A DNA stretch of 35,394 nucleotides from Candidatus Nezhaarchaeales archaeon. Its GTDB lineage: Archaea > Thermoproteota > Methanomethylicia > Nezhaarchaeales > JAWCJE01. The stretch is taken from positions 4,805 through 40,198 of the forward strand of contig JAWCJE010000014.1 of assembly GCA_038853715.1 (NCBI GenBank). The letters run 5' to 3'. The notes beneath the pieces are model-generated. The model saw only the letters and a program-made list of their open reading frames with translations, did not search any database and was not told the origin of the DNA. Each line of letters opens with the position of its first letter. Within the stretch, counting starts at the first letter, position 1. Position numbers and translations under genes: made by a program. Shown here piece after piece: positions 3,967 to 29,714 of the stretch.

Positions 3967-4218
3967 GTGGATGGGTTGACATTAGCCTTCGTACTTATAA
4001 ATAGTGAAACGGGTGCTGAGGAGGAGGTCTTAAAGGAGCTCGTCAAGGTAGATGAGGTTAAGGAGGCGTATAGCGTTTACGGCGTTTACGACATAATAGT
4101 AAAGGTGGAGGCCCCAGACCTAGATAAGCTTAAGGAGGTAGTACACTCCAAGATTAGGAGGATCGCCAAGGTTAGATCCACGCTAACCATGATCGCGATG
4201 GAAACGGCTAAGAAGTAA
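3967..4218 (+). CDS. stand-alone Lrp/AsnC ligand-binding (RAM) domain protein
   Basis: An 83-residue protein made up only of the RAM (regulation of amino-acid metabolism) fold: a beta strand TLAFVLINSE, a helix EEEVLKELVKV, the stretch VKEAYSVYGVYDIIVKVEA, then KLKEVVHSKIRRIAKVRSTL. Full Lrp/AsnC regulators carry an N-terminal HTH, which is absent. Stand-alone RAM proteins are common in archaea and are thought to bind amino acids or pair with full-length Lrp proteins. The GTG start is chosen from the TATA position; TTG at 3976 behind GGTGG is an alternative. It is convergent with the GTPase gene, leaving 2 bases between. The argG/lysW locus close by makes an amino-acid-sensing role attractive but unproven. 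Confidence 0.85.
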   Translation: MDGLTLAFVLINSETGAEEEVLKELVKVDEVKEAYSVYGVYDIIVKVEAPDLDKLKEVVHSKIRRIAKVRSTLTMIAMETAKK

Positions 4219-6069: not shown

Positions 6070-7284
6070 GTGAAGCCGGTGAAGGTAGTACTCGCCTTTT
6101 CAGGGGGTTTAGATACCAGCGTTATGGTGAAATGGCTTCAGGAGAAGTATCAAGCCGAGGTTATTACGGTTACCTTGGATCTAGGGCAGCGTGAGGATTT
6201 AAAGCCCATTGAGGAGAAGGCGGGGATGCTCGGAGTTTTAAAACACTACTCAATGGACGTTAGGGAGGAGTTCGCGGAAGGCTACATAGCGCTAGCCATT
6301 AGGGCTAACGCGCTCTACGAAGGTAAATACCCCGTTAGTACCGCTCTTTCAAGGCCTTTAATCGCTAAGAAGCTCGTCGAAGTCGCTAAGAAGGAGGACG
6401 CTAACGCGATAGCCCATGGATGCACCGGTAAGGGTAATGACCAGGTACGTATAGAGGTTACCGTTAAAGCGTTAGCTCCAGACCTAAAGGTTATAGCGCC
6501 TATACGTGAATGGGGCCTTACTAGGGAGCAGGAGTATGAATACGCTAAGAGGCACGGGATCCCGATTAAAGCTACGAGTAGCCTTTACAGTATAGATCAA
6601 AACCTCTGGGGTCGATCCGTGGAATGCGGCCCGCTCGAGGATCCAAGCCAAGAGCCGCCCGAAGACGCCTTCGAATGGACAACGCCGCCTGAGAAAGCGC
6701 CTAATACGCCTGAGTACGTAACGTTAAGCTTCGAGGATGGGCTACCCGTAGCTATTAACGGTGAACGTTTAAAGCTAGCGGAGCTTATAAGTAGGCTAAA
6801 CGTATTGGCCGGTAGGCACGGCGTTGGAAGGATAGACCACGTGGAGGATCGACTAGTAGGTATAAAATCGCGTGAAGTATATGAGTGTCCAGCGGCAGTC
6901 TGCATCTTAGAGGCTCATAAGGACCTTGAGAAGCTTACACTAACAAAGCATGAGTTATTCTTTAAGGAGCTCGTCGACAGTCAATGGTCCAACCTGGTCT
7001 ATAACGGCCTCTGGGAGGACCCGTTAAGGAAGGACCTCGACGCCTTCATAGCTGAGAGCCAAAGCCGCGTAAACGGCGACGTACGCCTTAAACTATTTAA
7101 GGGATCCGTTAAGGTAGTGGGGCGTACATCCCCTAATTCGCTCTACGAGTTAAAGCTAGCTACCTACGAGGCTTGGAGTACCTTCGACCAGTCATGGGCT
7201 AAAGGCTTCATAGAGCTTTGGGGCCTTCAAACAGGGATCGCGAACCGAATGGTTAAAAGGAAGGTGGATTATTGGAAATCTTAA
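6070..7284 (+). CDS. argG: argininosuccinate synthase
   Basis: Ligates citrulline and aspartate with ATP to argininosuccinate, the next-to-last step of arginine synthesis in the cytoplasm. The 404-residue length is normal. The N-type ATP pyrophosphatase motif AFSGGLDTS sits at about residues 8-16, followed by HGCTGKGNDQVR near 117-128 and the SVECGPLEDP segment, all typical of the family. GTG at 6070 is the only start that gives the full N-terminal strand. The gene overlaps argH by 13 bases, which points to translational coupling. Confidence 0.97.
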   Translation: MKPVKVVLAFSGGLDTSVMVKWLQEKYQAEVITVTLDLGQREDLKPIEEKAGMLGVLKHYSMDVREEFAEGYIALAIRANALYEGKYPVSTALSRPLIAKKLVEVAKKEDANAIAHGCTGKGNDQVRIEVTVKALAPDLKVIAPIREWGLTREQEYEYAKRHGIPIKATSSLYSIDQNLWGRSVECGPLEDPSQEPPEDAFEWTTPPEKAPNTPEYVTLSFEDGLPVAINGERLKLAELISRLNVLAGRHGVGRIDHVEDRLVGIKSREVYECPAAVCILEAHKDLEKLTLTKHELFFKELVDSQWSNLVYNGLWEDPLRKDLDAFIAESQSRVNGDVRLKLFKGSVKVVGRTSPNSLYELKLATYEAWSTFDQSWAKGFIELWGLQTGIANRMVKRKVDYWKS

Positions 7285-8747
7285 GAGGTAGCCGCCTCCA
7301 GCCACAACCCTTAGACGTAGCCTCCTTCACGTCGTCCGTAGCTAGCGATACTTGGCTTATCCAGGCGGTTATACGCATAAACCAAGCCCACGTTTTAATG
7401 CTATTCGAGCAGGGCCTACTTAACGCCCATGAAGCCTCAAGCCTCCTAAAGGCCCTTGAAGAAGTACCGCCCGACCTACCGCTCGACCCAAGCCTCGAAG
7501 ACGTACATATGAACGTAGAGCTCTTCGTAACCAAGAAGCTAGGAGAGGAAGTAGGCGGTAAGCTCCATTTAGCTAAGAGTAGGAACGACCAGGTAGCTAC
7601 CGCCATAAGGATGGTTCTACGGGAGCAGCTATTAGGCATCGTGGAGAAAACCATAAGCCTAGTGGAAACCCTACTTAAACGAGCTGAAGAACATCTAAAC
7701 ACCCCTATGCCTGGTTATACCCACCTACAACATGCTCAACCCGTTACCTTAGCCCACTACCTACTAGCTTACGCCGACTCCTTTACGCGGAGCTCCGAGA
7801 GGCTAATGGATTCCTATAGGCGTGTAAATAGGTGCCCTATGGGGGCCGCTGCTTTAGCAACCACTAGCTTTAAACTAGATAGGTTTAGGGTCGCCGAGCT
7901 CTTAGGCTTCGAAGGGCTTATCGAGAACTCCATGGATGCCGTTAGCGCTAGGGATTTCGCCGTGGAGGTCTTAGCCGGGATGGCCGTGTTGATGACCGAT
8001 TTAAGTAGGTTATGCGAAGAGTTAATCCTATGGAGTACGGCGGAGTTCGGCTTCGTCGATATACCGGACGAATACGCTTCAACGAGCAGTATAATGCCGC
8101 ATAAGAAGAACCCGGTTGTAGCGGAGCTTATAAGGGCGAAGGCCGGTACGGTTTACGGCAGCTTAATGGCCGCCCTATCAATCCTTAAAGCCCTCCCCAT
8201 GAGCTACAACCTAGACCTTCAGGAGCTAACCCCACACCTCTGGGAGGCTTGTAGAAATACCTCCTCATCGGTTTCAATGGCCGTCGGCATGCTTAAATCT
8301 ATTAGGTTTAATGTTAAGCGGCTAAGGGAGGTTTTAAACAGGAGCCAGGTGGAAGCTACAGAACTAGCCAACCTATTAGTTCGAAGCTTAGGCATCCCGT
8401 TTAGGCAGGCGCATAAAGCCGTAGGTAGCCTCGTAAGGTACGCTGAATCCAAGAGTACCCTCATAAAGGACCTACCGTTAAACGAGGTTAAGGATGTTTT
8501 AAGTAGGGAGTTAAACCGCCCCGTTAAACTGGACGATGAACTCGTTAAGGTCTTAAACCCGGAGTTCAACCTAGACCTTTACCGCGTAACCGGTGGACCG
8601 GCACCGGTCGAGGTTAGAAGGATGCTGGATCAACGCGTTAGGGTCTTAAGCGATTTAAGCGCTACAGTTAAAAGTAAGCGTTCCCATATTAGTGACTCCT
8701 TAGCAAAGCTTAAGAGCCTCGTAAACTCCTTGACCTCCGCCCCTTAG
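7272..8747 (+). CDS. argH: argininosuccinate lyase
   Basis: Splits argininosuccinate to arginine and fumarate. The 491-residue protein belongs to the fumarase/aspartase superfamily; the signature SSIMPHKKNP lies near residues 275-284, with the HLAKSRNDQVAT and PGYTHLQHAQP segments before it. The TTG start at 7272 lies inside the end of argG, preceded by AGGTGG. lysW follows 12 bases after the stop, so argG-argH-lysW is probably one transcript. Confidence 0.97.
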   Translation: MEILRGSRLQPQPLDVASFTSSVASDTWLIQAVIRINQAHVLMLFEQGLLNAHEASSLLKALEEVPPDLPLDPSLEDVHMNVELFVTKKLGEEVGGKLHLAKSRNDQVATAIRMVLREQLLGIVEKTISLVETLLKRAEEHLNTPMPGYTHLQHAQPVTLAHYLLAYADSFTRSSERLMDSYRRVNRCPMGAAALATTSFKLDRFRVAELLGFEGLIENSMDAVSARDFAVEVLAGMAVLMTDLSRLCEELILWSTAEFGFVDIPDEYASTSSIMPHKKNPVVAELIRAKAGTVYGSLMAALSILKALPMSYNLDLQELTPHLWEACRNTSSSVSMAVGMLKSIRFNVKRLREVLNRSQVEATELANLLVRSLGIPFRQAHKAVGSLVRYAESKSTLIKDLPLNEVKDVLSRELNRPVKLDDELVKVLNPEFNLDLYRVTGGPAPVEVRRMLDQRVRVLSDLSATVKSKRSHISDSLAKLKSLVNSLTSAP

Positions 8748-8759
8748 GAGGAGGCTTAA

Positions 8760-8933
8760 TTGAAGGTTAAATGCCCCGAATGTGATGGCGAGATTAACGT
8801 CCCCGAGGACGTAGTAGTGGGTGAAATCATCTCATGCCCTGATTGCGGCCGTGAGTACGAAGTGTACGAAGTAAGCCCGAACGGAGTATCCATAAGGCCA
8901 GCCGAGGTTGAAGGTGAAGATTGGGGCCAGTAA
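8760..8933 (+). CDS. lysW: amino-group carrier protein LysW, with C-terminal Gln
   Basis: A 57-residue acidic carrier protein. LysX joins the amino group of glutamate or aminoadipate to its C-terminal Glu, and the later enzymes act on the carried substrate. Zinc ligands C5-x2-C8 and C26-x2-C29 (CPEC and CPDC) are present. TTG at 8760 follows the strong ribosome site AGGAGGAGG. The family normally ends in EDWGE; here the last codons are GAA GAT TGG GGC CAG TAA, giving EDWGQ. The residue that should accept the substrate is therefore Gln. Either it is deamidated, this variant works differently, or the G-to-C difference is a sequence error. Identity as LysW is firm from size, cysteines, EDWG and the neighbours. 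Confidence 0.93.
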   Translation: MKVKCPECDGEINVPEDVVVGEIISCPDCGREYEVYEVSPNGVSIRPAEVEGEDWGQ

Positions 8934-9323
8934 GATAGGATTTAATCAGCCTTATTAGGCGTAGTGAGCTTCTTTTAAGCCTTGACTTTCTTAACTGTTA
9001 CGATTATGGGCTTACGAACTACGGTAAGGTAGGCTCTTCGAGGCTGCGAATAGGTACGTAGAGTTCCTAGCCATTGTACGCTATTTATTCTCAATACCCT
9101 TTGAACCCGTCTGAAAACCTTAAGTTGATCCTTAAAACCTAACACGTTAAGTTAACCGGTCGATTAGTCGTTAGGAGTTTTCAAACGGGTTAAGGTGAAG
9201 CATCAACACTTAGCATTCACATCGTTAAAGCATAGGCTAAAGAGGTTTCACGGCTTTAAACGTTATAAGGTAGCACCCCTCAAATACCGTGGAAGTGACG
9301 GATTTGACACTAGCCTTTATGTC
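8934..9323. other. non-coding gap between lysW and lysX
   Basis: About 390 bases with no supported gene. A plus-strand frame is open from 9195 into lysX, but its text is rich in Lys and His and unlike any ATP-grasp N-terminus, so it is taken as untranslated. A small hairpin GCCT-TATT-AGGC lies near 8949, just after lysW. Confidence 0.5.
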
Positions 9324-9330
9324 TATAAAA
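9324..9330 (+). promoter_or_regulatory. TATA box for lysX
   Basis: TCTATAAAAC has the strong TATA core TATAAAA. Its centre is about 24 bases before ATG 9351, so the transcript should be nearly leaderless. This decides the lysX start. Confidence 0.6.
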
Positions 9331-9350
9331 CAATGGGGCGGGTGCTAAGT

Positions 9351-10199
9351 ATGAAGATATTACTACTCCAAGATAGGGTTCGCTGGGAGGAGAAGCAGAT
9401 AATGGCCGCGGCGCAAAGTAGAGGGGTTAACCTTAAGCCCTTAGACGCTAAGGACGTAGTGGTTGACTTCGACTTCTTAAGGGAGGTTAAAGCTGACATA
9501 GCGCTACAGAGGTGCGTAAGCCATTTTAGAGGCCTCTACTTAACGGCAGCTTTAGAGGCAGCTAATCTTAGGGTGGTAAATAGCTTCGCCACGATGCACG
9601 TATGCGGCGATAAACTATTATCCTCCATAGCCCTATTTAAGGCCGGGGTACCTAGCCCTAGCTTCGCGGCTACCTTCACCGTGGAGTCAGCCTTAAAGGC
9701 GTTAACTAGGTTAAACTACCCAGCAGTTTCAAAACCGGTGGTAGGTAGCCACGGCCGCCTCCTCTCCCTAGTGAAGGATCGGGACGCGGCGATAGCCATA
9801 CTTGAACACGAGGAAGCATTAGGTAGCGCGTTACACCGTATCCACTACTTCCAAGAGTTTATAGATAAACCCTCAAGGGACATAAGGATCGTGGTTGTAG
9901 GCGGTAAAGCCGTAGCCGCCATCTACAGGTACGCGCCTCAGGGTGAATGGAGGACGAACGTAGCCATAGGTGGTACCGCTAAACCCTGCCCCCTCACTAA
10001 TGAGCTTGAGGGGTTAGCCCTTAAAGCCGCTAAAGCAATGAACGCCGAGGTAGCCGGCGTAGACATAATGGAGAAGGGCGACGAACTCCTAGTTAACGAG
10101 GTAAACCCAACGGTTGAGTTTAGGGGGGCATCCTTAGCGACCAACGTCGATATAGCCGGTGAAATAGTAGACTACCTTATTAGGGAGGTAAAGCGTTAA
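9351..10199 (+). CDS. lysX: LysW ligase, RimK-type ATP-grasp (LysX/ArgX)
   Basis: ATP-dependent ligase that joins the amino group of glutamate (ArgX activity) or alpha-aminoadipate (LysX activity) to the C-terminal side chain of LysW. Starting at ATG 9351 it has 282 residues, the usual family size. The ATP-grasp fold shows KPVVGSHGRL near residues 128-137, the QEFI hinge strand, and the metal/ATP-binding end VNEVNPTVEFRGAS. The longer frame from 9195 adds 52 residues unlike the family and is rejected. Only one such ligase is in the window while argG and argH are adjacent, so it either serves arginine alone or both arginine and lysine, as bifunctional LysX enzymes do in some archaea. Substrate choice cannot be read from the sequence with confidence. 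Confidence 0.92.
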   Translation: MKILLLQDRVRWEEKQIMAAAQSRGVNLKPLDAKDVVVDFDFLREVKADIALQRCVSHFRGLYLTAALEAANLRVVNSFATMHVCGDKLLSSIALFKAGVPSPSFAATFTVESALKALTRLNYPAVSKPVVGSHGRLLSLVKDRDAAIAILEHEEALGSALHRIHYFQEFIDKPSRDIRIVVVGGKAVAAIYRYAPQGEWRTNVAIGGTAKPCPLTNELEGLALKAAKAMNAEVAGVDIMEKGDELLVNEVNPTVEFRGASLATNVDIAGEIVDYLIREVKR

Positions 10200-10503: not shown

Positions 10504-11583
10504 ATGGAAGTAGAGAAGAAATCGGCAAGCGTAAAGGTGGGAATAATAGGGGCTTCGGGGTATACTGGCGGAGAACTATTAAGGATCCTACTCGGACATC
10601 CCGAGGTTGAAGTTAAAATCGCTACTTCTAGGGAGTACGCTGGCGAATACCTATTTAGGGTTCACCCTAACCTAAGGGGTTTAACCGACCTTAAGTTTAC
10701 CCCCCTCGACCTAAAAACCATTATTAGTACGTGTGACGTAGTATTTACTTCAACACCCCATGGCGCATCAGCTAAGCTAATCCCTCAGCTCCTAGAGGCT
10801 GGATTAAAGGTTATTGATTTAAGCGCGGACTTCAGGTTGAAGGACCCTAAGAAGTACGAGGAATGGTATGGCTGGAAGCATCCTAAACCGGAACTCCTCC
10901 AGGAGGCGGTTTTAGGACTACCGGAGCTTCACCGTGAGGAGTTGAAAAGGGCGAAGCTTATAGCTTGCCCAGGCTGTATAGCGACGGCTTCCATCCTAGC
11001 TTTAGCCCCCCTCGTTAAAGCTGGGTTGATAGCATTGGACCGTATAATTATCGACGCGAAAATGGGTTCATCCGGCGGTGGAGCCAAGCCTTCACCCGCT
11101 ACACATCACGCGGAGCGCTTCGGAGTTATAAGGCCTTACGCGGCGGCTAAGCATAGGCATTGCGCTGAAATAGAGCAGGAGTTAAGCCTAATAGCTAGTA
11201 GGGAGGTTAAGGTGGCTATGTCGGCGCACGCAGTAAACATAGTTAGAGGTATCCTAGTAACAGCCCATACCTTCGCCTCTAAGCAGGTATCCCAACCTGA
11301 GCTATGGAGGGCCTATAGGGGGATGTATGGTAAGGAGCCCTTCGTAAGGATCGTTAAGGATAGAAAGGGGGTTTACCGCCTCCCAGACCCTAAAGTAGTA
11401 GTAGGTACAAACTTCTGCGACGTAGGCTTCGAGCTTGATGAACGCCTAAATAGGATTGTAGCTTTATCGGCGATCGACAACATGGTTAAAGGCGCCTCAG
11501 GCCAAGCAGTACAATGCTTCAACATAACCCTCGGAATAGATGAACGTACGGCGCTCAACCTCCCCGGCTTCCACCCGATTTAA
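10504..11583 (+). CDS. lysY: LysW-glutamyl/aminoadipyl phosphate reductase (LysY/ArgC)
   Basis: NADPH-dependent reductase that converts the LysW-bound acyl phosphate to the semialdehyde. The 359-residue protein has the Rossmann motif GASGYTGGEL near 16-25 and the nucleophile motif CPGCIAT with C158 as the catalytic cysteine; a conserved HAVNIVRG segment follows. ATG 10504 is supported by the TATA position. It is followed by lysZ after 9 bases and lysJ after that. ArgC enzymes acting on N-acetylglutamate are close relatives; the LysW context points to the carrier-protein route. Confidence 0.95.
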   Translation: MEVEKKSASVKVGIIGASGYTGGELLRILLGHPEVEVKIATSREYAGEYLFRVHPNLRGLTDLKFTPLDLKTIISTCDVVFTSTPHGASAKLIPQLLEAGLKVIDLSADFRLKDPKKYEEWYGWKHPKPELLQEAVLGLPELHREELKRAKLIACPGCIATASILALAPLVKAGLIALDRIIIDAKMGSSGGGAKPSPATHHAERFGVIRPYAAAKHRHCAEIEQELSLIASREVKVAMSAHAVNIVRGILVTAHTFASKQVSQPELWRAYRGMYGKEPFVRIVKDRKGVYRLPDPKVVVGTNFCDVGFELDERLNRIVALSAIDNMVKGASGQAVQCFNITLGIDERTALNLPGFHPI

Positions 11584-11592
11584 ACCTTAAGC

Positions 11593-12411
11593 GTGATAGT
11601 AGTGGTTATCGTAATTAAGATAGGCGGCGACCTTTTAAAGGGTGGGAAGCTAAACGAGGACCTTATTAACGATATGAAGAGCGTTAAGAGCGGCGAAAAC
11701 ATCGTGGTAGTGCATGGAGGCGGCGATATAGTTACGGAGATAGCTGAAAAACTAGGTAAGAAGCAGGTTTTCGTAACAAGCCCTGAAGGCTTTAAAAGCA
11801 GGTATACCGATAGGGAAACGGCCGCGATATACGCCATGGTGATGGCCGGCAAGCTGAATAAGGAGATCACCGTCGCCCTTCAAAGTAGGGGTCTACCAGC
11901 CCTAGGTATATCGGGGCTTGACGGCGGGCTGCTAAAAGCTGAACGTAAGAAGAAGCTCGTCATCATCGATGAGCGTGGGCGTAAACGAATAATAGAAGGT
12001 GGATATACGGGCCGTATTATTAGCGTTGATACTCAAGTATTAACCCCATTAATGGAAGCGGGCTTCATACCCGTCGTAGCCCCGGTAGCTCTAGGCGATG
12101 AATATGAAATACTTAACGTCGACGGGGATCGGGCCGCTGCTAATATAGCTGGCGCGCTTAAAGCTAACGCCTTAATCCTCCTAACGGACGTAGAAGGAGT
12201 TATGGTGAACGAAGTACTCGTAAAGGAGGTACACTTAAACGATGTTGACTCCTTAATAAGGAAGCTAGGGCCCGGAATGATAACTAAGATGTACGCCGCC
12301 GCCGAAGCCGTAAGGCTAGGCGCCTCCAAATCCATAATAACCTCAGGTTTAAAAGCCGCACCGATTACATCAGCCCTAGCCGGAAGAACCGGTACGTTCG
12401 TGGTGCCTTAA
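11593..12411 (+). CDS. lysZ: LysW-glutamate/aminoadipate kinase (LysZ/ArgB)
   Basis: Amino-acid-kinase-family enzyme that phosphorylates the side-chain carboxylate of the LysW-bound substrate. The 272-residue protein has the N-terminal strand VIKIGGDLL, the glycine-rich VVHGGGD loop near 35-41, a nucleotide-binding LLTDVEGV segment near 195-202, and the GPGMITKM motif. GTG 11593 gives three extra residues before the strand; GTG 11602 is an equally good start. It lies 9 bases after lysY and 2 bases before lysJ, so the genes form one operon. The carrier-protein substrate is inferred from context. Confidence 0.94.
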   Translation: MIVVVIVIKIGGDLLKGGKLNEDLINDMKSVKSGENIVVVHGGGDIVTEIAEKLGKKQVFVTSPEGFKSRYTDRETAAIYAMVMAGKLNKEITVALQSRGLPALGISGLDGGLLKAERKKKLVIIDERGRKRIIEGGYTGRIISVDTQVLTPLMEAGFIPVVAPVALGDEYEILNVDGDRAAANIAGALKANALILLTDVEGVMVNEVLVKEVHLNDVDSLIRKLGPGMITKMYAAAEAVRLGASKSIITSGLKAAPITSALAGRTGTFVVP

Positions 12412-12413
12412 AC

Positions 12414-13619
12414 ATGGACGTGGAATCCTTAAAGAAGGTGGAGGATACATTCCTAGCTGGCGTCTATCAAAAACTCCCAGTAGTACTCGTTAAGGGTAGG
12501 GGGGTAACGGTTTGGGATACGGATGGCAACGAGTACGTAGACTGCATGGGCGGCTACGGCGTAGCCTTAGCCGGCCATTGCCACCCGAAAATAGTTGAAG
12601 CCATAAAGAATCAAGCTGAGCAATTAATAACCTGCCACGGCTCCATCTATAACGATGCTAGAGCGCGCTTCTTAGAGAAGCTATTTAAGCTAACGCCTAA
12701 AGGGCTTGATAAGGCCTACCTATGTAATAGTGGTGCTGAAGCCGTAGAGTGCGCTTTAAAGCTAGCTCGTAGGTATACTGGTAAACGCGGCTTCATAGCT
12801 ATGAATAGGGCTTACCACGGTAAAACCATGGGCGCCCTCTCCGCTACCTGGGACGCGAAGTATAGGGCGGCCTTCGAACCGTTACTCCAAGGATTTAAGT
12901 TCGTACCCTACGGAAGGATTGATAAGCTACGCGAAGCCTTAACAGGCGAGGAAGCAGCAGTCATAGTTGAACCGATACAAGGTGAAAGCGGCGTAATAAT
13001 ACCGCCGAACGACTACTTAAAGCAGGTTAGGGAGCTATGCGATGAGAAAGGGGTTCTACTCATCTGTGATGAGGTTCAAACCGGTTTCGGTAGGACGGGG
13101 AGGATATGGGCCTCGGAGCATTGGGGCGTAGTACCGGATATAATGTGCTTAGCTAAACCGGTTGGAGGCGGAATCCCCATGGGGGTTACGTTAGCTAAAA
13201 GCGAAGTAATGGACTCCTTTAAGAAAGGCGAGCATACTTCAACCTTCGGCGGAAACCCCTTAGCCTGCGCAGCTGCTTCAGCCTTCCTCGACGTCCTCAT
13301 CGAGGAAAAACTAGTGGAACGAGCTAAGGAGCAAGGAGACTACTTTAAGGCTAAACTGGAAAGCCTTAAGCAACGCTTCAACATAGTAAGGGAGGTACGT
13401 GGACTAGGCTTAATGCTCGCTTCGGAGTTAAGGTTCAACCTCGTTCAAAACGTAGTATTAGGAATGCTATCAAAACGCGTCCTAATACTCTACTCCGGAT
13501 TAAACACCTTACGCTTCCTCCCACCCTTAGTTATAACTAAGGAGCAGATAGATAAAGCATGCATAGCCCTTGAAGAAGTACTCGAAGAGCAAAGCGCCTC
13601 GCTAAAAGCAGGTATATAA
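12414..13619 (+). CDS. lysJ: LysW-lysine/ornithine aminotransferase (LysJ/ArgD)
   Basis: PLP-dependent class III aminotransferase that turns the LysW-bound semialdehyde into LysW-ornithine or LysW-lysine with glutamate as amino donor. The 401-residue length is normal. It shows CNSGAEAVECALKLAR near 102-117, the cofactor-binding LLICDEVQTGFGRTG near 212-226, the PLP lysine in LAKPVGGGIP near 246-255, and STFGGNPLAC. ATG at 12414 follows lysZ by 2 bases. Acetylornithine or gamma-aminobutyrate aminotransferases are relatives, but the position inside the lys/arg cluster settles the role. Confidence 0.94.
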   Translation: MDVESLKKVEDTFLAGVYQKLPVVLVKGRGVTVWDTDGNEYVDCMGGYGVALAGHCHPKIVEAIKNQAEQLITCHGSIYNDARARFLEKLFKLTPKGLDKAYLCNSGAEAVECALKLARRYTGKRGFIAMNRAYHGKTMGALSATWDAKYRAAFEPLLQGFKFVPYGRIDKLREALTGEEAAVIVEPIQGESGVIIPPNDYLKQVRELCDEKGVLLICDEVQTGFGRTGRIWASEHWGVVPDIMCLAKPVGGGIPMGVTLAKSEVMDSFKKGEHTSTFGGNPLACAAASAFLDVLIEEKLVERAKEQGDYFKAKLESLKQRFNIVREVRGLGLMLASELRFNLVQNVVLGMLSKRVLILYSGLNTLRFLPPLVITKEQIDKACIALEEVLEEQSASLKAGI

Positions 13620-13776: not shown

Positions 13777-14904
13777 ATGAAGCCTTCAAGCTACGCTTTA
13801 AACCTATTAAAGGGTATGCTTGAAATATATAGTCCCTCCGGAAGGGAGGCTAGTATAGCTAGCTTCCTTAAGGATGAAATGGAGAAGCTAGGCTACCGGG
13901 CTCATATTGACGGCGTCGGTAACGTCGTAGGGACCGTTGAAGGCTCGGGTAGAGGGCCAAACGTACTACTATGTGGCCATATGGATACCGTTCCCGGCTT
14001 CATACCGGTTAAGGAGGTTAACGGCAATATTTATGGGAGGGGGGCTGTTGACGCTAAATCGCCCCTAGCGGCCATGATCATCGCGGGTAGCCGCTACGCC
14101 GAGAAAGGTACCGGTAGGATAACGTTAGCCGCGGTCGTAGATGAGGAGGGGCTAAGTAAGGGTATAAAATACCTCATCGAAACCATGCCGCAGCCTGACT
14201 ACGCCCTCTTCGGAGAGCCGGGTGGAGCTTCAAGCGTAACCATAGGGTATAAGGGTAGCATATCGGTAAGTGTTAAGCTTAAAACTAGAACCGGCCATAC
14301 CGCCGCCTCATGGCTATACGATAACGCCGTTGAGAAAGGGTATGAGCTCTGGCAACTCTTAAGGGCTCAACTAGCTAAATACGTAGTTAAGGGAAGCTAC
14401 TATAAGAGTCTAACCTGGTGTTTAACGAGCGTTAAAACCATTACCCGGCCCGGCCTAGTTCCATACGGCTCCCTATTAAACTTCAACCTAAGGTTGCCCC
14501 CAGGCCTCACCGTGGAGGAAGCGGTAAGCCTCGTTGAAGGCGTCATTCAGGACTTTAAACGGATTAACCCAAGGGTTAAAGTCGGGTTTAACGTTTTAGA
14601 CGCCGTTGAACCCGTCGAAGTTAAACCATCCTCGATACTAGTAAGAGCCTTTCAAAGGGCCGTGATGAAGAAACTCGGGGTTAAAGCCATCCTAGTTAGG
14701 AAGACCGGTACCGGAGATATGAACGTAGCCGCCTCCAAGTGGCGTATACCCATGGTTACCTACGGCCCCGGGGATCCTAAGCTTGACCATACCCCGGACG
14801 AACACGTAAACCTAAACGATTACTTAAACTCAATAGAGGTCCTAGTTGAAGCGCTACACACCTTAAGCGGACTACACGGATCAATAAACCCGGTAAAAGC
14901 TTAA
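13777..14904 (+). CDS. lysK: LysW-lysine/ornithine hydrolase (LysK/ArgE, M20 family)
   Basis: Metal-dependent amidase that frees lysine or ornithine from LysW and regenerates the carrier. The 375-residue M20-type protein has the metal site LLCGHMDTVPG near 67-77, RGAVDAKSPLAAM with its metal-bridging Asp, the catalytic base region VDEEG near 120-124, and EPGGA after it. A 157-base gap with a TATA-like GTTTTAAG near 13725 separates it from lysJ, so it may have its own promoter. If LysW truly ends in Gln, this enzyme is the one whose product would reset the modified terminus. Confidence 0.93.
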   Translation: MKPSSYALNLLKGMLEIYSPSGREASIASFLKDEMEKLGYRAHIDGVGNVVGTVEGSGRGPNVLLCGHMDTVPGFIPVKEVNGNIYGRGAVDAKSPLAAMIIAGSRYAEKGTGRITLAAVVDEEGLSKGIKYLIETMPQPDYALFGEPGGASSVTIGYKGSISVSVKLKTRTGHTAASWLYDNAVEKGYELWQLLRAQLAKYVVKGSYYKSLTWCLTSVKTITRPGLVPYGSLLNFNLRLPPGLTVEEAVSLVEGVIQDFKRINPRVKVGFNVLDAVEPVEVKPSSILVRAFQRAVMKKLGVKAILVRKTGTGDMNVAASKWRIPMVTYGPGDPKLDHTPDEHVNLNDYLNSIEVLVEALHTLSGLHGSINPVKA

Positions 14905-22557: not shown

Positions 22558-23700
22558 GTGGAAGCTGAAGCCATACTTCAACGGTTTAAGGAATGGGTCG
22601 ATAAACGCCACGAGTACGCTAAGGCTTGGAAGGAGCGAACCGGCGGTAAGGTTGTAGGCTACTTCTGCACCTACGTACCCGAGGAAATACTATACGCAGC
22701 CGGAGTTCTACCGGTTAGAGTTCTAGGTAGCCATGAGCCTCCCACCATGACCGAGCCCTACATATTCGCCATGTACTGCCCCTTCTGCCGAGATTGTCTT
22801 CAGCAGGGTTTAAAGGGGAGGTTTAACTACCTAGACGGCATCGTTGAAGGCCAGTCCTGCCTACACTTAAGGCAGGCCTTCATGGCTTGGAGGCTCTACA
22901 TACCCACCGAGTACGCCTATTGGATATACGTACCACACGGCGTTCAAACGCCTAGAGCTATACCCTACCTAGCTAAGGAGTACGCTAAGTTTAAGGAGTC
23001 CCTCGAGAAGTGGCTAGGTAAACGTATAACCAATGAGGATCTTGATAGGGGGATAAGGATCCTTAATAGGAATAGGCAACTCCTACGAAAAGTATACGAG
23101 TATAGGAAGCTTGATAGGCCGAAGATAACCGGCCTCGAAGCGATGGAGATAGCTTTATCCAGCCAAATGACCGATAAAGAGGAGCATTCACAGCTATTAG
23201 AAAAACTTTTAGAAGCCTTACCCAATAGGGAGATGGATCGAGACCCCGGCGTTAGGCTAATGATAATAGGTAGCGAAGACGATGATCGCGAGTTCATAAG
23301 TAACGTGGAAAGCCTCGGCGCCACCTTCGTTATCGAGGAGCATTGTACCGGTACTAGGTACTTCTGGAACGACGTAGTACCTCAAGAGGATAGGCTCATG
23401 GCTATAGCTGAACGCTACGTTAAAAGGGTCCCGTGCCCAAGTAAGGATTGGCCCGAGCTCACGAGGATAAAGCACGCCGTTAACCTAGCTAAGGAGTATA
23501 AGGCTCAAGGGGCTATCGTAATGCAGATGAAGTTCTGCGACCCCCACGGTATTGAGATACCGCCCTTAAGGGAGTCCCTTGAAGAAGCGGGCGTTAAAAC
23601 CTATCCGCTCGAGTTCGACGTAACCGTACCGTGGGGCCAGTTTAGAACTAGGGTTGAGGCCTTCATGGAGACCTTAACGGGCCTCGAGGAGCTATTCTAA
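22558..23700 (+). CDS. benzoyl-CoA reductase/2-hydroxyacyl-CoA dehydratase-type subunit, BcrC/BzdN-like
   Basis: Smaller catalytic subunit of an ATP-driven, low-potential CoA-thioester reductase or dehydratase (HgdB/BcrC family). The 380-residue length fits BcrC/BzdN. Candidate Fe-S ligands are C37 in YFCTYVPEE, the cluster C74-P-F-C77-R-D-C80, and C101 in EGQSCLH; the Y-x-P-E-E-I-L-Y-A-A-G segment is a family hallmark. The GTG start is 12 bases after GGAGG. It is the first of four plus-strand genes; the gaps are small and each next gene has its own GGAGGTG ribosome site. Its substrate cannot be told from sequence: benzoyl-CoA, another aromatic thioester or a 2-hydroxyacyl-CoA are all possible. 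Confidence 0.88.
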   Translation: MEAEAILQRFKEWVDKRHEYAKAWKERTGGKVVGYFCTYVPEEILYAAGVLPVRVLGSHEPPTMTEPYIFAMYCPFCRDCLQQGLKGRFNYLDGIVEGQSCLHLRQAFMAWRLYIPTEYAYWIYVPHGVQTPRAIPYLAKEYAKFKESLEKWLGKRITNEDLDRGIRILNRNRQLLRKVYEYRKLDRPKITGLEAMEIALSSQMTDKEEHSQLLEKLLEALPNREMDRDPGVRLMIIGSEDDDREFISNVESLGATFVIEEHCTGTRYFWNDVVPQEDRLMAIAERYVKRVPCPSKDWPELTRIKHAVNLAKEYKAQGAIVMQMKFCDPHGIEIPPLRESLEEAGVKTYPLEFDVTVPWGQFRTRVEAFMETLTGLEELF

Positions 23701-23714
23701 GGAGGTGAAGACAT

Positions 23715-25049
23715 ACGTCCGAGAAGATTAAGGAATACCCAACCGAGCCTTTAAAGGTATGGGAGGAGGCGAAGGCTTTAAGGAGGAAGTACTACGAAGA
23801 CTACCTAACAGCCCATGAGAAGGGCGCTATTAGATGGGCCGGTGGAGCATGGACCTTTAGCGCTATACCGGAAGGCCTAGGTAGAGACGTATACTGTATA
23901 ACCAGTGAACCTTACGGAGCAACCATAGCCTTCTTTAAGGAGTTCGCCGCTAAATGTCACGACGCTACTGAAGCAGCGGGCTTTCCGAGGACGTTATGCG
24001 CCTACATGAGGAACTACTGGGGCTCAATACTCCTCGATAAGTATATCCTCGCCGACGGAAGAGTCGTAGACGGCTTCCCAGCCCCAGACTTCATATGGCA
24101 GGACCATATATGCTGTAGCCACGCTAAATGGTATCAGATCGTTAAATGGCTTGAGAAGAAGAAGGGAAAAGAGATACCGATGTACTGCGTAGACGTCTCG
24201 GTCGGGCCCTTCAACGAGATCGAGGACTACAAGATCGACTACATAGTCCAACAGCTCAACGACGGCATAGAATGGATGGAGAAAGTCACCGGGAGGCGTT
24301 ATCAGGATAAACTCCTATGCGAAGCCGTATGGAACGAGATGAAATCAACCTCCCTATGGGCTGAGATATGCGCCCTCAACCAGAACGTACCGGCGCCGTT
24401 AGACGAAAAAACCATGTATTCGCTCTACGTAATGGGGACCCTGATGAAGCATAAGAAGGAATGCGTCGATTTCTACGATAAGCTAAAGAAGGAGGTTGAA
24501 GATAGGGTTAGAAGGGGTATAGCCGCCGTCCGCTACGAAAGGTTTAGGGTTATAACGGATACACAGCCCCCATGGGGCTTCCTAAGCGTATTCAGGGAGA
24601 TGGAGAAGTTCGGAGTAGTATCGGTAGGCTCCCTCTACACGTTCGGGCTCATAGGGATGTGGGAGTATAAGCCCGACGGCACCTGGGCCCCCAAACAGCC
24701 CCCTCCAAGACCTCCGAAGGATAGGGATGAAGCCTTAAAGTGGATCGTCGAATGGACCCTCTATAGGCCTGAATGGGCCCACTTCTATAAGCCTGAGCTT
24801 AAAACGAAGATGATTGCTAGCATCTATAGGCAGTGGAAGCTTAACGCAGTACTTCTCCACTACAATAGGGGCTGTGAAGGATTATCCTGCGGTATAGCCT
24901 TAAACCGGTTGGGGCTCGTGGAGCAAGGTATCCCCGTGTTCCCCTTCGAGGGTAACATGGGTGACGAGCGCGAATTCGACTACGCCGGAACCCTTGCGAG
25001 GCTAACCGCCTTCTTCGAGAGTATGGGCTTAAAAAAGATCGTAAGTTAG
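23715..25049 (+). CDS. benzoyl-CoA reductase/2-hydroxyacyl-CoA dehydratase-type subunit, BcrB/BzdO-like, apparent ACG start
   Basis: Larger catalytic subunit of the same enzyme. The first ATG in frame is at 24006, but protein-like text runs back to 23709 without a stop (EYPTEPLKVWEEAKALRRKY, then WAGGAWTFSAIPEGLGRDVY). No ATG, GTG or TTG lies in that part. ACG at 23715 begins MSEKIKEYP (if read as Met) and sits 6 bases after GGAGGTGA, the same spacing as the two following genes. From ACG the protein has 444 residues, the expected size for BcrB/BzdO. Cysteines in DHICCSHAKW and NRGCEGLSCG are candidate Fe-S ligands. An assembly error turning ATG into ACG is the main alternative. Confidence 0.87.
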   Translation, partial: TSEKIKEYPTEPLKVWEEAKALRRKYYEDYLTAHEKGAIRWAGGAWTFSAIPEGLGRDVYCITSEPYGATIAFFKEFAAKCHDATEAAGFPRTLCAYMRNYWGSILLDKYILADGRVVDGFPAPDFIWQDHICCSHAKWYQIVKWLEKKKGKEIPMYCVDVSVGPFNEIEDYKIDYIVQQLNDGIEWMEKVTGRRYQDKLLCEAVWNEMKSTSLWAEICALNQNVPAPLDEKTMYSLYVMGTLMKHKKECVDFYDKLKKEVEDRVRRGIAAVRYERFRVITDTQPPWGFLSVFREMEKFGVVSVGSLYTFGLIGMWEYKPDGTWAPKQPPPRPPKDRDEALKWIVEWTLYRPEWAHFYKPELKTKMIASIYRQWKLNAVLLHYNRGCEGLSCGIALNRLGLVEQGIPVFPFEGNMGDEREFDYAGTLARLTAFFESMGLKKIVS

Positions 25050-25062
25050 GAGGTGGGAAAGG

Positions 25063-25848
25063 TTGATAACAGCCGGTGTGGATATAGGAGCTAAGTACGT
25101 AAAGGTCGTAGTACTAAAGGATAAGCAGCCCATATCTAAAGTTAGGGGGACGGTAGGGTTCGACGTAGCTAAATCCGCCTTAGACGCGTTCGAACAAGCG
25201 TTAAAAGGAGCAGGTATAACGAGAGGCGACGTAGAACGCGTCTTTGCAACCGGCATGGGTAGGAAGGCCGTACATTTAAAGCCTCCGATAAACGCTGATG
25301 AAGCGGTACCCGAAGTAGTAGCTGACGCCGCGGGCGTAATACACGTAGTGCCAACGGCTAGAACCGTTATAGACGTAGGCGCTGAGGAAGGGCGAGGCGT
25401 TAAAGTAGATCCTACGGGGAAGGTTAAGGACTTCGTAATTAACGAGAGGTGTGCAGCTGGCGCCGGCACCTTCGTTGAGGCCATGGCTAGAGCGCTCGAA
25501 GTACCCTTAGAGCAGATGGGTCCTCTATCGCTTAAATCGCAAAGAACCATACCTATGAACGCGCAATGCACCATCTTCGCCGAGTCCGAGGTAGTCTCGT
25601 TAATACACGCCAAGGTATCAAAGGAGGATATAGCTAGAGCCATCCACGACGCTATGGCCGGTAGGATAGGCTCCATGGTGCGTAGGATCGGCATAGAGAA
25701 GGACGTAGTCCTAGTTGGCGGCGTAGGTAACAACGTGGGCTTCGTAGCTTCACTGAAGAGGGAGCTAGGCGTAGACATAATAGTCCCTGAGGGACCTGAA
25801 TACATAAGCGCCTTAGGGGCGGCCCTAATAGCCTCAAGTAAGGCTTAA
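25063..25848 (+). CDS. ASKHA ATPase/activator subunit of the reductase (BadF/BadG/BcrA/BcrD family), first copy
   Basis: ATP-hydrolysing electron-activation subunit that passes a low-potential electron to the catalytic pair. The 261-residue protein starts with the phosphate loop AGVDIGAKYVKVVVL, has cysteine-containing NERCAAGAGTF and NAQCTIFAESEV as the two probable ligands of the inter-subunit [4Fe-4S] cluster, and ends in VLVGGVGNNVGF and the adenosine region. The middle ASKHA motif reads IDVGAEEGRG, where the sister subunit keeps DIGGQD. TTG 25063 is 6 bases after GGAGGTGG. It is short for the family (BcrA is about 435 residues), closer to BcrD/BzdP/BzdQ sizes. Confidence 0.9.
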   Translation: MITAGVDIGAKYVKVVVLKDKQPISKVRGTVGFDVAKSALDAFEQALKGAGITRGDVERVFATGMGRKAVHLKPPINADEAVPEVVADAAGVIHVVPTARTVIDVGAEEGRGVKVDPTGKVKDFVINERCAAGAGTFVEAMARALEVPLEQMGPLSLKSQRTIPMNAQCTIFAESEVVSLIHAKVSKEDIARAIHDAMAGRIGSMVRRIGIEKDVVLVGGVGNNVGFVASLKRELGVDIIVPEGPEYISALGAALIASSKA

Positions 25849-25863
25849 GGAGGTGAAGAAGTC

Positions 25864-26736
25864 GTGTCCCAGGAGTATTGGAGATGGCCCGAGTATAGGT
25901 ATACGATGCCGGGCCTAGATCCTAAGAGGGCTAAGGTAATAACCGCCGGCGTCGACATAGGTTCAGTTGGTAGTAAGGCCGTCATCATGCTCGACGGCAA
26001 CCTCTACGCCTACGCGGTGATGCGAACAGGTGGTGAAAGCGCGGCTACCGCCCTAAAGGTTACGAACTGGGCCCTTGAAGGAACGGGGCTTACGATAAAC
26101 GATCTACATTACACCGTCGGAACCGGGTATGGACGCGTTAACGTACCTTTCGCGAAGAAAACCATAACCGAGATAGCTTGCCACGCTAGAGGAGCACACT
26201 ACATATATGGACCAACGGTTAGAACGGTCTTAGATATAGGCGGGCAGGACTGCAAAGCCATAAGGTGCGACGAGAAGGGTAAAGTAGTATCCTTCCTAAT
26301 GAACGATAAATGCGCAGCTGGTACCGGAAGAGGGTTAGAGGTGTTCGCCGACCTCATAGCCGTTCCCATACAGGACTTAGGCACTACCTCGCTACAAGTG
26401 GATCAGGAGCCACCGCCAGTAAGTAATACTTGCGTCGTATTCGCTAAGGCCGAGTCGCTCGCCTTATTAAGGCAGGGATGGCCGAAGGAAAAGGTAGCAG
26501 CAGCCTACCACTTAGCCATGGTGGATCGTATCGTCGACCTACTTAACCGCGTAGGGATCGAGAAGGACTTCGTAGTAACCGGAGGCGTATCAAAGAACCC
26601 GGGCATAGTTAAAAGGCTTGAAAAGGCGTTAGGGTTAAAACCATTAACGCCTAAACTGGATCCAATACTTGCAGGAGCTATAGGAGCGGGGCTATTCGCT
26701 AAGGCCCTCTACGAGAAGGAGAAGGGCTTAAGGTAG
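25864..26736 (+). CDS. ASKHA ATPase/activator subunit of the reductase, second copy
   Basis: Second ATPase subunit, 290 residues. After a 25-residue lead (EYWRWPEYRYTMPGLDP) it shows AGVDIGSVGSKAVIML, the intact second phosphate motif VLDIGGQDCKAI, NDKCAAGTGRGLEVF and SNTCVVFAKAESLAL with the two cluster cysteines, and FVVTGGVSKNPG for adenosine. GTG 25864 follows GGAGGTGA by 7 bases. Two unequal ATPases in one operon mark four-subunit class I benzoyl-CoA-reductase-like enzymes; 2-hydroxyacyl-CoA dehydratases normally use one homodimeric activator. This is the best evidence for the reductase reading. Confidence 0.9.
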   Translation: MSQEYWRWPEYRYTMPGLDPKRAKVITAGVDIGSVGSKAVIMLDGNLYAYAVMRTGGESAATALKVTNWALEGTGLTINDLHYTVGTGYGRVNVPFAKKTITEIACHARGAHYIYGPTVRTVLDIGGQDCKAIRCDEKGKVVSFLMNDKCAAGTGRGLEVFADLIAVPIQDLGTTSLQVDQEPPPVSNTCVVFAKAESLALLRQGWPKEKVAAAYHLAMVDRIVDLLNRVGIEKDFVVTGGVSKNPGIVKRLEKALGLKPLTPKLDPILAGAIGAGLFAKALYEKEKGLR

Positions 26737-26779: not shown

Positions 26780-28024
26780 CTAAGAAGTGATTAGGCTTAT
26801 TATAGCTCCGTAAGGAGCGTCAAGCTTACCACCCCTCATCCTATAAGTGAAAACCGGGAAACCTAATCCTTTAAAGTGTTCTACGTACTTCTCATCAACC
26901 AGGAGTATAAGCCTCTTAAACCCAGCTTTTCTAAGCTCTTCAAGCTTAACCCTCTTCTTAACCGTGTACTCAGGCCTCCAAAAACCTATTAACTCGACAT
27001 ACCATTTAACGCCGTCAGGCCTCGTAAAGGCGTAGTCAGGGATTAGCAACGTGCTTCCAACGATTAAAGGTTCAGGCTCCCTCTCAACCCTATACTTATC
27101 CACGCAGCTCATCACTAGGTAGAATCTACGTTCAACCTCACTATCAAATATAGGTTCTACGGCTTCCTCCTGCCTAACATCCATAAGTAGGCTCGGCACA
27201 TCTTCAGATGTTAAAACGCAGGGTAAATCACGCCTCTTTAAACGTACTAATATCTTCACCCTCCACCTTTTACAGGCCCTTAAAACAGTTAAGATCCTAT
27301 CGAATAGAGCCGAAAGCCTCCAAGCGAACCGCGTAACCCTACCGAAGAGCTCTACGGGGCCGTATACGTCTACCGTTACCTCTCCGCCTTCAAGCCTAGC
27401 GTCATAAATTAGCCCAAGCCTTTTAACCTCTCTAACCAACGCTTTAACGAAGGCCCCCTTAGGCATAGTTAAGCTACCAGTACTAGTAAAGCTAATCATC
27501 CTTGAATTGGAGAGTAACGTATCCAATAATTCAAAGTTGTATAGCTTAACTACGCGGTCAACATCCACCCGCTCCATAGCTCTAGCCAGTAGGTAACCCC
27601 TCGGATCATCACTCCAAAGGAACTCTTCAAGCTCCACGGGATCCTTAAACCCGTGCTCCAACGCAAACCGTTTAAGTACGGATATCCTATCCTTAGCGAA
27701 ACCATCTAGCTCGGAGTTAACAAGCTTAAACAGCTTAAGCCTAAGTTCGGAGGGGTTACATTTAAACCGTTGAAGGCTTACGGGTGGCTTCCAGCTGTAA
27801 ACGTGCTCTAAGGCGTACCTTAAACCATCCGCCAACCTATCATCGCCGACCTCATACCTAAACTCGTCCCAGTCGATCTTACATTTCTCCACGCCTAAAT
27901 GCGCCTCGTAGAAAGCTATAGCCCTCTCCACCGCTGATACATACTCCGGGTTATCGGTGTTCAGCCATAGAGGAACCATTAAGCCGCGTCTAACCCTAAA
28001 CCTTAAAAGCCGCCGTGGTAGCAT
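26780..28024 (-). CDS. bax1: Bax1, XPB-associated nuclease (DUF790)
   Basis: Structure-specific endonuclease that works with archaeal XPB in DNA repair. The 414-residue protein begins MLPRRLLRFRVRRG as the family does. The C-terminal nuclease core shows SEVERRFY near 295-302, then D330 in LLIPDYAF and E344 in WYVELIGFW, followed by KKRVKLEEL, a PD-(D/E)XK arrangement. It is downstream of xpb by 31 bases on the same strand, the usual order for the pair. Confidence 0.93.
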   Translation of the reverse strand: MLPRRLLRFRVRRGLMVPLWLNTDNPEYVSAVERAIAFYEAHLGVEKCKIDWDEFRYEVGDDRLADGLRYALEHVYSWKPPVSLQRFKCNPSELRLKLFKLVNSELDGFAKDRISVLKRFALEHGFKDPVELEEFLWSDDPRGYLLARAMERVDVDRVVKLYNFELLDTLLSNSRMISFTSTGSLTMPKGAFVKALVREVKRLGLIYDARLEGGEVTVDVYGPVELFGRVTRFAWRLSALFDRILTVLRACKRWRVKILVRLKRRDLPCVLTSEDVPSLLMDVRQEEAVEPIFDSEVERRFYLVMSCVDKYRVEREPEPLIVGSTLLIPDYAFTRPDGVKWYVELIGFWRPEYTVKKRVKLEELRKAGFKRLILLVDEKYVEHFKGLGFPVFTYRMRGGKLDAPYGAIISLITS

Positions 28025-28055
28025 TGACCTACATCCCGATCAACATACCTTTAAG

Positions 28056-29714
28056 CTACGTAATCCACTCTTTAAACTTCCTCCTTCGAAGGCTTAACTG
28101 CTGATCCATAGTACCCCTAGTTACGAGTTCAATCATTAAAGCCGGCTCGTTCTTAGGCCTAAGAAGCCTACCTATCCTCTGAAGGTATTCACGGTTACTA
28201 CCGGAGCCGCTAATAATAATACCTACCTGCGCGTCAGGTACGTCCACGCCTTCCTCCAACGTCATCCCGGAGGCCAGCTTAGTAACTTCACCCCTCCTAA
28301 ACATTTCGAGGATAGCCTTCCTCTCATCATTATTCGTTTCAGCTACGATTAACGGTATTAAGTAGCGCCTACTTACCTCCCTAACGACGTCTACGTAGCG
28401 GCTAAAGATTAAAACCTTCTTCCCCCTATACTTAGAGAGTAATTCGCCTACAAGTTCAACCTTCTTATCGGCGTTTAAAGCCAACCTCCTAGCTCGGCTC
28501 CTAGCCCTTAAAGCGACCCTAGCCTGAGGATCCTTAGCGGCGTACTTTAAACATAGCTTAAACCTCCTCCTAGGGTCACGTACCTCGGGTATAACCCTAT
28601 CGCAGTAATCGTTATAGGCTTTAACGTAACGCCGGTACTCCTCCATCTCCTCAGGGTCCAAATCGACGTAGACTCTTTTAACCCTACAGCTGGCTATATA
28701 GCCTTGACGCCGAAGCTCATCCTCAGATACCAACTGGATGAGGGGGCCTAGAACCCCGTCGTAGTACTTATGGAGGCCGTCACTCCTCAACGGCGTCCCC
28801 GTTAAACCCATCCTATACTTAGCTACGTTAAGCTCAAACCCCCTCCTAAACCCTTCAGCGACGGCGTGATGGGCTTCATCGGCTACGAGCAGCATGAAAC
28901 GCCCGCCGATCTCCTCAGCGTTTAAGTAGGCGGATTCATAGGTGATAATGGTAACCTCCCTAACCTCCTTAAAGCCGCCTCCATAAACCCCCACCTTATC
29001 TACGGGTGCGTTAAGGTACCTGTAGATATTCCTCCTCCATTGATGTAGTAGCTCGATCGACGGAACAACTATTAACGTTCTAACCTTTAAATCTGCTATA
29101 GCTTGAAGGGCTAAAAACGTCTTACCAGCAGCAGTCGGTAGGGCGATTACACCGCGAAAACCGTTAAGCCTCCAAGCCTCATAACACTTAGCCTGATAGC
29201 CTCTAAGCTTAAAGCTTGCTTCAGGCTTAAAGGATAATCGCATCTCCAAGTCGAAGTCCACGTTAAACCTACACTTACCCCTTAAAGATTCGAGAAGACT
29301 CCAAAGCATACATGGCTTAACCCTATACGTACGCGTCTTAGGCTCAAAGATGGCGTAACTAGGCAGTAATCCTTCAGCGCTCGGCGTAACCGTTAATACT
29401 AAGTCGCTACCTTTAAGCGAAACGTTAACAATACTACTAGACCTAATATTCTCGATTTCACGTAACACTTCATCCGATAATTGTACGCCATACCTCCTAA
29501 GCCTACCTAAATCGTCGGGGTTAAGGGAAGCACACTTAGCTAAGTTCAACCGGTAGACGCTAACCCCTTCACTACGCCCTAGGTAGTCGGCGAAGCGTAA
29601 TACTTCGTTAAACGAGGCTTCATCAAGCTTAGGCAAGCTAAAGAAAGGATCTGAAAGCCTAACTAGCTTAAACGTTGAAGACATTCCGGCGGCAACCATT
29701 AAACGCTGCTTCAA
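28056..29714 (-). CDS. xpb: archaeal XPB-type DNA helicase/translocase
   Basis: 3'-to-5' superfamily 2 helicase. With TTG 29714 it has 552 residues; ATG 29699 (M6) fits a leaderless transcript from the TATA-like GCTTAAAAGC near 29730 and is an equal choice. Walker A is LPTAAGKT at 192-199 (K198), the DEAH box is at 279-282, and motif VI is QRIGRLLRP near the C-terminus. The N-terminal 160 residues correspond to the damage-recognition part. It forms an operon with bax1. The divergent promoter side faces a 690-base gap with repeat remnants. Confidence 0.93.
   Translation of the reverse strand: MKQRLMVAAGMSSTFKLVRLSDPFFSLPKLDEASFNEVLRFADYLGRSEGVSVYRLNLAKCASLNPDDLGRLRRYGVQLSDEVLREIENIRSSSIVNVSLKGSDLVLTVTPSAEGLLPSYAIFEPKTRTYRVKPCMLWSLLESLRGKCRFNVDFDLEMRLSFKPEASFKLRGYQAKCYEAWRLNGFRGVIALPTAAGKTFLALQAIADLKVRTLIVVPSIELLHQWRRNIYRYLNAPVDKVGVYGGGFKEVREVTIITYESAYLNAEEIGGRFMLLVADEAHHAVAEGFRRGFELNVAKYRMGLTGTPLRSDGLHKYYDGVLGPLIQLVSEDELRRQGYIASCRVKRVYVDLDPEEMEEYRRYVKAYNDYCDRVIPEVRDPRRRFKLCLKYAAKDPQARVALRARSRARRLALNADKKVELVGELLSKYRGKKVLIFSRYVDVVREVSRRYLIPLIVAETNNDERKAILEMFRRGEVTKLASGMTLEEGVDVPDAQVGIIISGSGSNREYLQRIGRLLRPKNEPALMIELVTRGTMDQQLSLRRRKFKEWIT

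Follow-up and report, generated by a model that had tools for sequence, protein, structure and literature searches.

The LysW carrier encoded in an arginine operon of a Candidatus Nezhaarchaeales archaeon ended in glutamine instead of the glutamate that serves as the acceptor in characterised LysW proteins, and the same ending recurred in other families of its phylum. Arginine synthesis and, in many archaea, lysine synthesis depend on LysW, and its terminal Glu has been treated as indispensable. We infer that the terminal Gln is deamidated. The reading that we somewhat favoured was that Gln-ending LysW is a real and functional carrier made as a pro-form and deamidated to Glu, for which LysK/ArgE would be the most economical deamidase.

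The LysW gene and its arginine operon

The window, that is, the whole stretch of 35,394 nucleotides that was analysed, came from a genome of 30 contigs that was 95% complete. Its bases 8919-8933 read GAT TGG GGC CAG TAA, which gave the C-terminus EDWGQ to a protein of the form MKVKCPEC...AEVEGEDWGQ. Thus, the Gln end claimed by the original prediction was confirmed in the bases themselves, and its description of intact zinc ligands, size and operon was borne out by the four cysteines, the length of 57 aa and the complete arginine gene set around the gene (Table 1). All four zinc-binding cysteines (C5, C8, C26 and C29) were kept and the LysW zinc-ribbon domain was present. In a profile search, the protein passed the archaeal LysW model NF041070 (carrier_LysW_Arch) with 85.8 bits at a cut-off of 75, and other Gln-ending LysW copies scored 80.7-93.9 with this model; its score with the LysW equivalog model TIGR01206 was 40.8 bits, under the curated cut-off of 53.2. 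It could be aligned to the last residue with the LysW chains of the structures 3vpb, 3wwl and 5k2m, all three of which end in Glu. The terminal Glu acceptor that otherwise marks a LysW protein was replaced by the residue of a CAG codon. Judged by homology and context, the predicted product is a LysW/ArgW protein whose chain, as encoded, is without an acceptor carboxylate.

Table 1. Genes of the arginine operon in the window and the terminal codon of its LysW carrier
Feature	Position	Strand	Remarks
argG, argininosuccinate synthase	6070-7284	+	
argH, argininosuccinate lyase	7272-8747	+	
argW/lysW carrier	8760-8933	+	57 aa, TTG start, four zinc Cys, EDWGQ end
Terminal Gln codon CAG, acceptor position (Glu in characterised LysW)	8928-8930	+	read from the sequence
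argX, ATP-grasp carrier ligase	9351-10199	+	LysX_arch 309 bits; GSHGR in place of GSWGR; start set by homology, open frame from 9195
argC, reductase	10504-11583	+	
argB, [LysW]-aminoadipate/[LysW]-glutamate kinase	11593-12411	+	NF010662, 300.8 bits, cut-off 194
argD/lysJ, aminotransferase	12414-13619	+	
argE/lysK, [LysW]-lysine/ornithine hydrolase (M20)	13777-14904	+	candidate LysW deamidase (putative role)

The gene was located between argH and the ArgX/LysX ligase gene, followed by argC, argB, argD and argE, and the LysX/ArgX, kinase, reductase, aminotransferase and hydrolase genes that characterise a LysW locus were therefore all adjoining. Positions 8934-9350, between argW and argX, comprised about 400 bases that had no evident gene and no Rfam match; RNA families and tRNAs were absent from the whole window. 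The GSWGR motif of the ligases has a reported role in recognition of the LysW tail. Its counterpart in the window ArgX, GSHGR, was found at 9744-9758 (residues 184-188, counted from the ORF start at 9195), and nearly all other ligases of our set had Trp at this position. We rejected GSHGR as an adaptation to Gln because it was shared by the sister ArgX proteins of two genomes from the same order (G001 and G003), where LysW ends in Glu.

Distribution and evolution of the glutamine ending

The original prediction had proposed to tabulate the last LysW residue in related genomes, and this tabulation revealed the Gln end in 85 genomes including that of the window. Among 398 genomes of the phylum, 86 matched the pattern of EDWGQ followed by a stop, compared with 3 for the reversed-pattern control and 246 for the Glu-ending pattern. 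All but one of the 86 matches were counted as LysW by inspection of positions and loci, with sequence-level reading of 19 of 20 loci from the scan and of all larger regions that were extracted. The exception was G067, where the match was not LysW and the LysW ended in Glu. The Gln matches were found in families f12 (61 of 62 genomes), f44 (4 of 4), f48 (6 of 6), f17 (8), f22 (4) and f38 (1 of 2), in addition to the window. Base error or a local oddity was thus ruled out by the scan as a general explanation.

Archaeal amoA was present in those genomes of f12, f44 and f48 that were tested, and these three families were therefore considered to be ammonia-oxidizing archaea, probably Nitrosopumilaceae, Nitrosocaldaceae and Nitrososphaeraceae. 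The 38 distinct Gln-ending LysW genes that were read used both CAG and CAA, all four Gly codons and all three stops. Archaeal Gln-tRNA is made by amidating Glu-tRNA(Gln) via GatDE, and it could be argued that a small share of CAG is read as Glu through this intermediate, where a trace of Glu-LysW would be enough because the carrier is catalytic and recycles. This explanation was extremely improbable because it gives no reason for conservation of the Gln codon over the three ammonia-oxidizer families, and Glu-tRNA(Gln) is normally withheld from the ribosome.

The Gln-ending copy was not the only LysW of the window genome, and the original prediction, correct about this copy, had missed the second one. 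The latter was located on another contig (C29) and ended in EDWGE; in its vicinity were a regulator of the AsnC type and another LysX-type ligase. In the same order, G001 and G003 of family f2 possessed two LysW copies each, all of them Glu-ending, and the window was the sole Gln case in this order, with its family represented by this genome alone. As an outcome that would refute it, the original prediction had named a Glu end in every relative and a Gln end in this genome alone. Within the order this was what we found (the nearest relatives, f2 and f3, had Glu), but beyond it 84 other genomes from six more families ended in Gln.

It is conceivable that the window copy has no function or reflects a base error, and that the Glu-ending LysW on contig C29, which could serve both pathways, does so in the manner of the single LysW in Sulfolobus. 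The Glu ends of this second copy and of both copies in the f2 relatives agree with this explanation; moreover, GAG to CAG is a single-base change and one genome of the family was in the sample. Nevertheless, we consider it very unlikely since the exact EDWGQ ending recurred widely and was conserved, the zinc ribbon and the operon were intact, and decay would yield other end residues, none of which was found among the LysW genes of the pathway. In particular, the recurrence of the same ending in the phylum made the single-base error that the original prediction had allowed for unlikely at the CAG codon.

Other genomes provided insights into what the Gln copies do. In f12, the gene order was argG-LysW(Glu)-X-argC-argB-argD-(AsnC)-homocitrate-synthase-like-LysW(Gln)-X-argE, and the Gln copy of this family was therefore assigned to the lysine part; the Gln copy of the window sits in the arginine part. 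Both LysW copies were Gln-ending in two f48 genomes (G389 and G232). Furthermore, the single-contig genomes G222, G325 and G353 had one LysW each, which ended in Gln and was clustered with two LysX/ArgX-type ligases and with argC, B, D and E. Cultured ammonia oxidizers grow autotrophically; if these three ammonia oxidizers are autotrophic as well, then their Gln carrier must support both pathways. The median dN/dS was about 0.12 for the Gln copies of f12 and 0.10 for Glu copies, and the Gln copies are under purifying selection. Together with the sole-carrier genomes, this ruled out a decayed paralogue as a general explanation.

The two endings were exchanged repeatedly. We placed 55 ligases on a tree (a quick method, with one long branch flagged) and gave each the end residue of the LysW next to it as a label. 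The Glu/Gln label changed at least nine times, and seven of the changes were forced by well-supported branches, the window among them. Both end states were present within one genus in g71 of f38 (G122 and G157, the Glu/Gln pair of that family) and in g55 of f17, and G262 had Glu where the other f12 genomes have Gln, which represented a reversal. A third terminal residue did not occur among the LysW genes of the pathway. This restriction to Glu and Gln suggested a specific equivalence, since random loss of Glu should also yield Lys or Gly by single transitions. The GTGA overlap with the following gene in the ammonia oxidizers was rejected as a coding constraint, since such an overlap would also be possible with GAG TGA, and in the window the next gene is some 400 bases away. 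Further upstream in the tail, the LysW proteins of f18 and f30 (L161-L168) had EDYGE instead of EDWGE. Separately, family f4 (L169, L170 and L171) encoded zinc ribbons resembling LysW, whose long tails were rich in glutamate and ended in Trp; no pathway genes were nearby.

Proposed maturation of the carrier and candidate deamidases

In Natrinema gari, glutamate was found attached to the terminal Glu of ArgW, and the E54A replacement of this residue by Ala abolished arginine synthesis, making the strain auxotrophic (PMC10433800). Since the terminal Glu was needed there, a Gln end must be either converted or bypassed. The statement of the original prediction that Gln needs deamidation fit both this mutant and the unchanged pathway enzymes described below, from which we infer the conversion itself.

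According to the pro-form reading, the terminal Gln of LysW would be hydrolysed to Glu with release of NH3, and the ATP-grasp ligase would then attach its usual substrate, glutamate for ArgX and aminoadipate for LysX, to the gamma-carboxylate so formed. Each carrier molecule would need a single deamidation: later cycles would end with LysK/ArgE freeing ornithine or lysine and leaving LysW-Glu. Because LysW would be recycled in this way, a slow reaction that takes place once on each molecule would be enough. LysK/ArgE is already a hydrolase of LysW-gamma-CO-NH-R, for which Gln would be the case of R = H. Tentatively, it may be the LysW deamidase, and the undescribed deamidase of the original prediction, right as to the need for conversion, may not have to be a new enzyme. 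A weakness of this step of the reading is that an M20 hydrolase normally recognises the amino acid that it releases, and ammonia as a leaving group offers little to recognise. In each of the 23 genomes that were checked, with Gln-ending or Glu-ending LysW, LysK/ArgE scored over the cut-off, and thus its presence had no discriminating power. The frequent switching between Glu and Gln, also within genera, and the reversal in G262 fit an activity for handling Gln that is always present.

The ligases beside Gln carriers had no Gln-linked substitution common to the seven Gln/Glu contrasts and kept all conserved ATP-grasp residues, and specificity-position scans of argE, argB, argC and argD revealed no convergent Gln-linked change, where the contrasts were small enough for a change of few residues to escape notice. 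An absence of Gln-linked changes is expected if the pathway enzymes see the usual Glu substrate. Alternatively, the ligase might use Gln directly, either by amide exchange, in which the amine of Glu or aminoadipate replaces NH3, or by ATP-dependent joining to the alpha-carboxyl group of the terminal Gln. The second route would resemble RimK, the S6:glutamate ligase of the family to which LysX/ArgX belong, which extends the alpha-carboxyl C-terminus of ribosomal protein S6, whereas LysX/ArgX act on the gamma-carboxyl group of LysW. Although no extra enzyme would be required, direct use was unlikely, since no substitution followed Gln in the seven contrasts and the ATP-grasp residues were kept even though amide exchange would not need them; thus, a LysX accepting the amide, as the original prediction had suggested, found no support. 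Moreover, the product of alpha-linkage would not be the one that is formed on Glu, yet in f12 and G282 a single argC/B/D set was present in the cluster, which holds a Glu-ending as well as a Gln-ending carrier. As an observation on the ligases in general, the second LysX-type ligase in genus g28 of f17 (L080:13077-13931, with matching genes in L140 and L143) had no recognisable GSWGR and still scored as LysX_arch.

Comparison of the neighbourhoods revealed no extra gene family common to the Gln clusters beyond homocitrate-synthase-type genes and unrelated families, and the window contained no deamidase candidate other than argE/lysK. A deamidase encoded elsewhere in the genomes would escape such a comparison, and a dedicated or general deamidase away from the clusters could turn Gln-LysW into Glu-LysW. 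This possibility meets the same need for conversion and is compatible with every result, including the lack of a candidate common to the Gln neighbourhoods or in the window. We considered it rather unlikely because a separate enzyme would be required in at least seven families and would have to persist while the end residue switched repeatedly between Glu and Gln, also in genera where both occur, and LysK already has the right chemistry.

Known systems and implications

The known LysW/ArgW carriers (NF041070, TIGR01206; Thermus, Sulfolobus, Thermococcus and Natrinema) resemble the window protein in size, zinc ribbon and acidic EDWG tail as well as in the operon with LysX/ArgX, LysZ/ArgB, LysY/ArgC, LysJ/ArgD and LysK/ArgE. 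However, the solved structures and characterised examples that we compared end in Glu, whereas the window encodes Gln and would have no acceptor carboxylate until converted. In the open-licence literature (with subscription papers outside the search), we found no report of a Gln-ending LysW and no mention of EDWGQ. A published Nitrosopumilus maritimus model assigned LysW-mediated synthesis of both arginine and lysine, and the terminal residue was unmentioned in the excerpted part of that paper (PMC6038301).

The parallel with Pup and Dop that was drawn in the original prediction holds. Pup, which acts with Dop and PafA in actinobacteria, is also a small carrier whose attachment point is the side chain of a terminal Glu that is often encoded as Gln, with the Gln form in some lineages and the Glu form in others; Dop both cleaves the Pup isopeptide and deamidates Pup-Gln, and it is kept in some lineages where Pup ends in Glu (PMC3511204). 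LysK/ArgE is a candidate counterpart of Dop. On the other hand, the two carriers are unrelated in fold and purpose, since Pup tags proteins for the proteasome and LysW carries a biosynthetic intermediate; the Pup ligase is glutamine-synthetase-like and that of LysW is an ATP-grasp enzyme, and the candidate LysW deamidase is an M20 hydrolase. Even more tentatively, the hydrolase that releases the product may also mature the carrier, which would constitute a second, independently evolved Pup/Dop-like arrangement, this time in amino acid biosynthesis and conserved across ammonia-oxidizing archaea. If true, this would be a convergent case of a modifier's reactive Glu being encoded as Gln. Ammonia-oxidizing archaea are abundant microbes of the nitrogen cycle, and if nearly all of them encode Gln, then their central metabolism includes an activation step that has gone unnoticed, and pathway models built from genomes are short of a reaction.

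Several other genes of the window were of separate interest. A short protein at 3967-4218 matched only the C-terminal part of Lrp/AsnC and was without the DNA-binding domain. Genes of the 2-hydroxyacyl-CoA dehydratase type, namely two HGD-D subunits and a BadF/BcrA-type ATPase, were located at 22558-26736, and a DUF790 protein adjoined an XPB-like helicase at 26780-29714.
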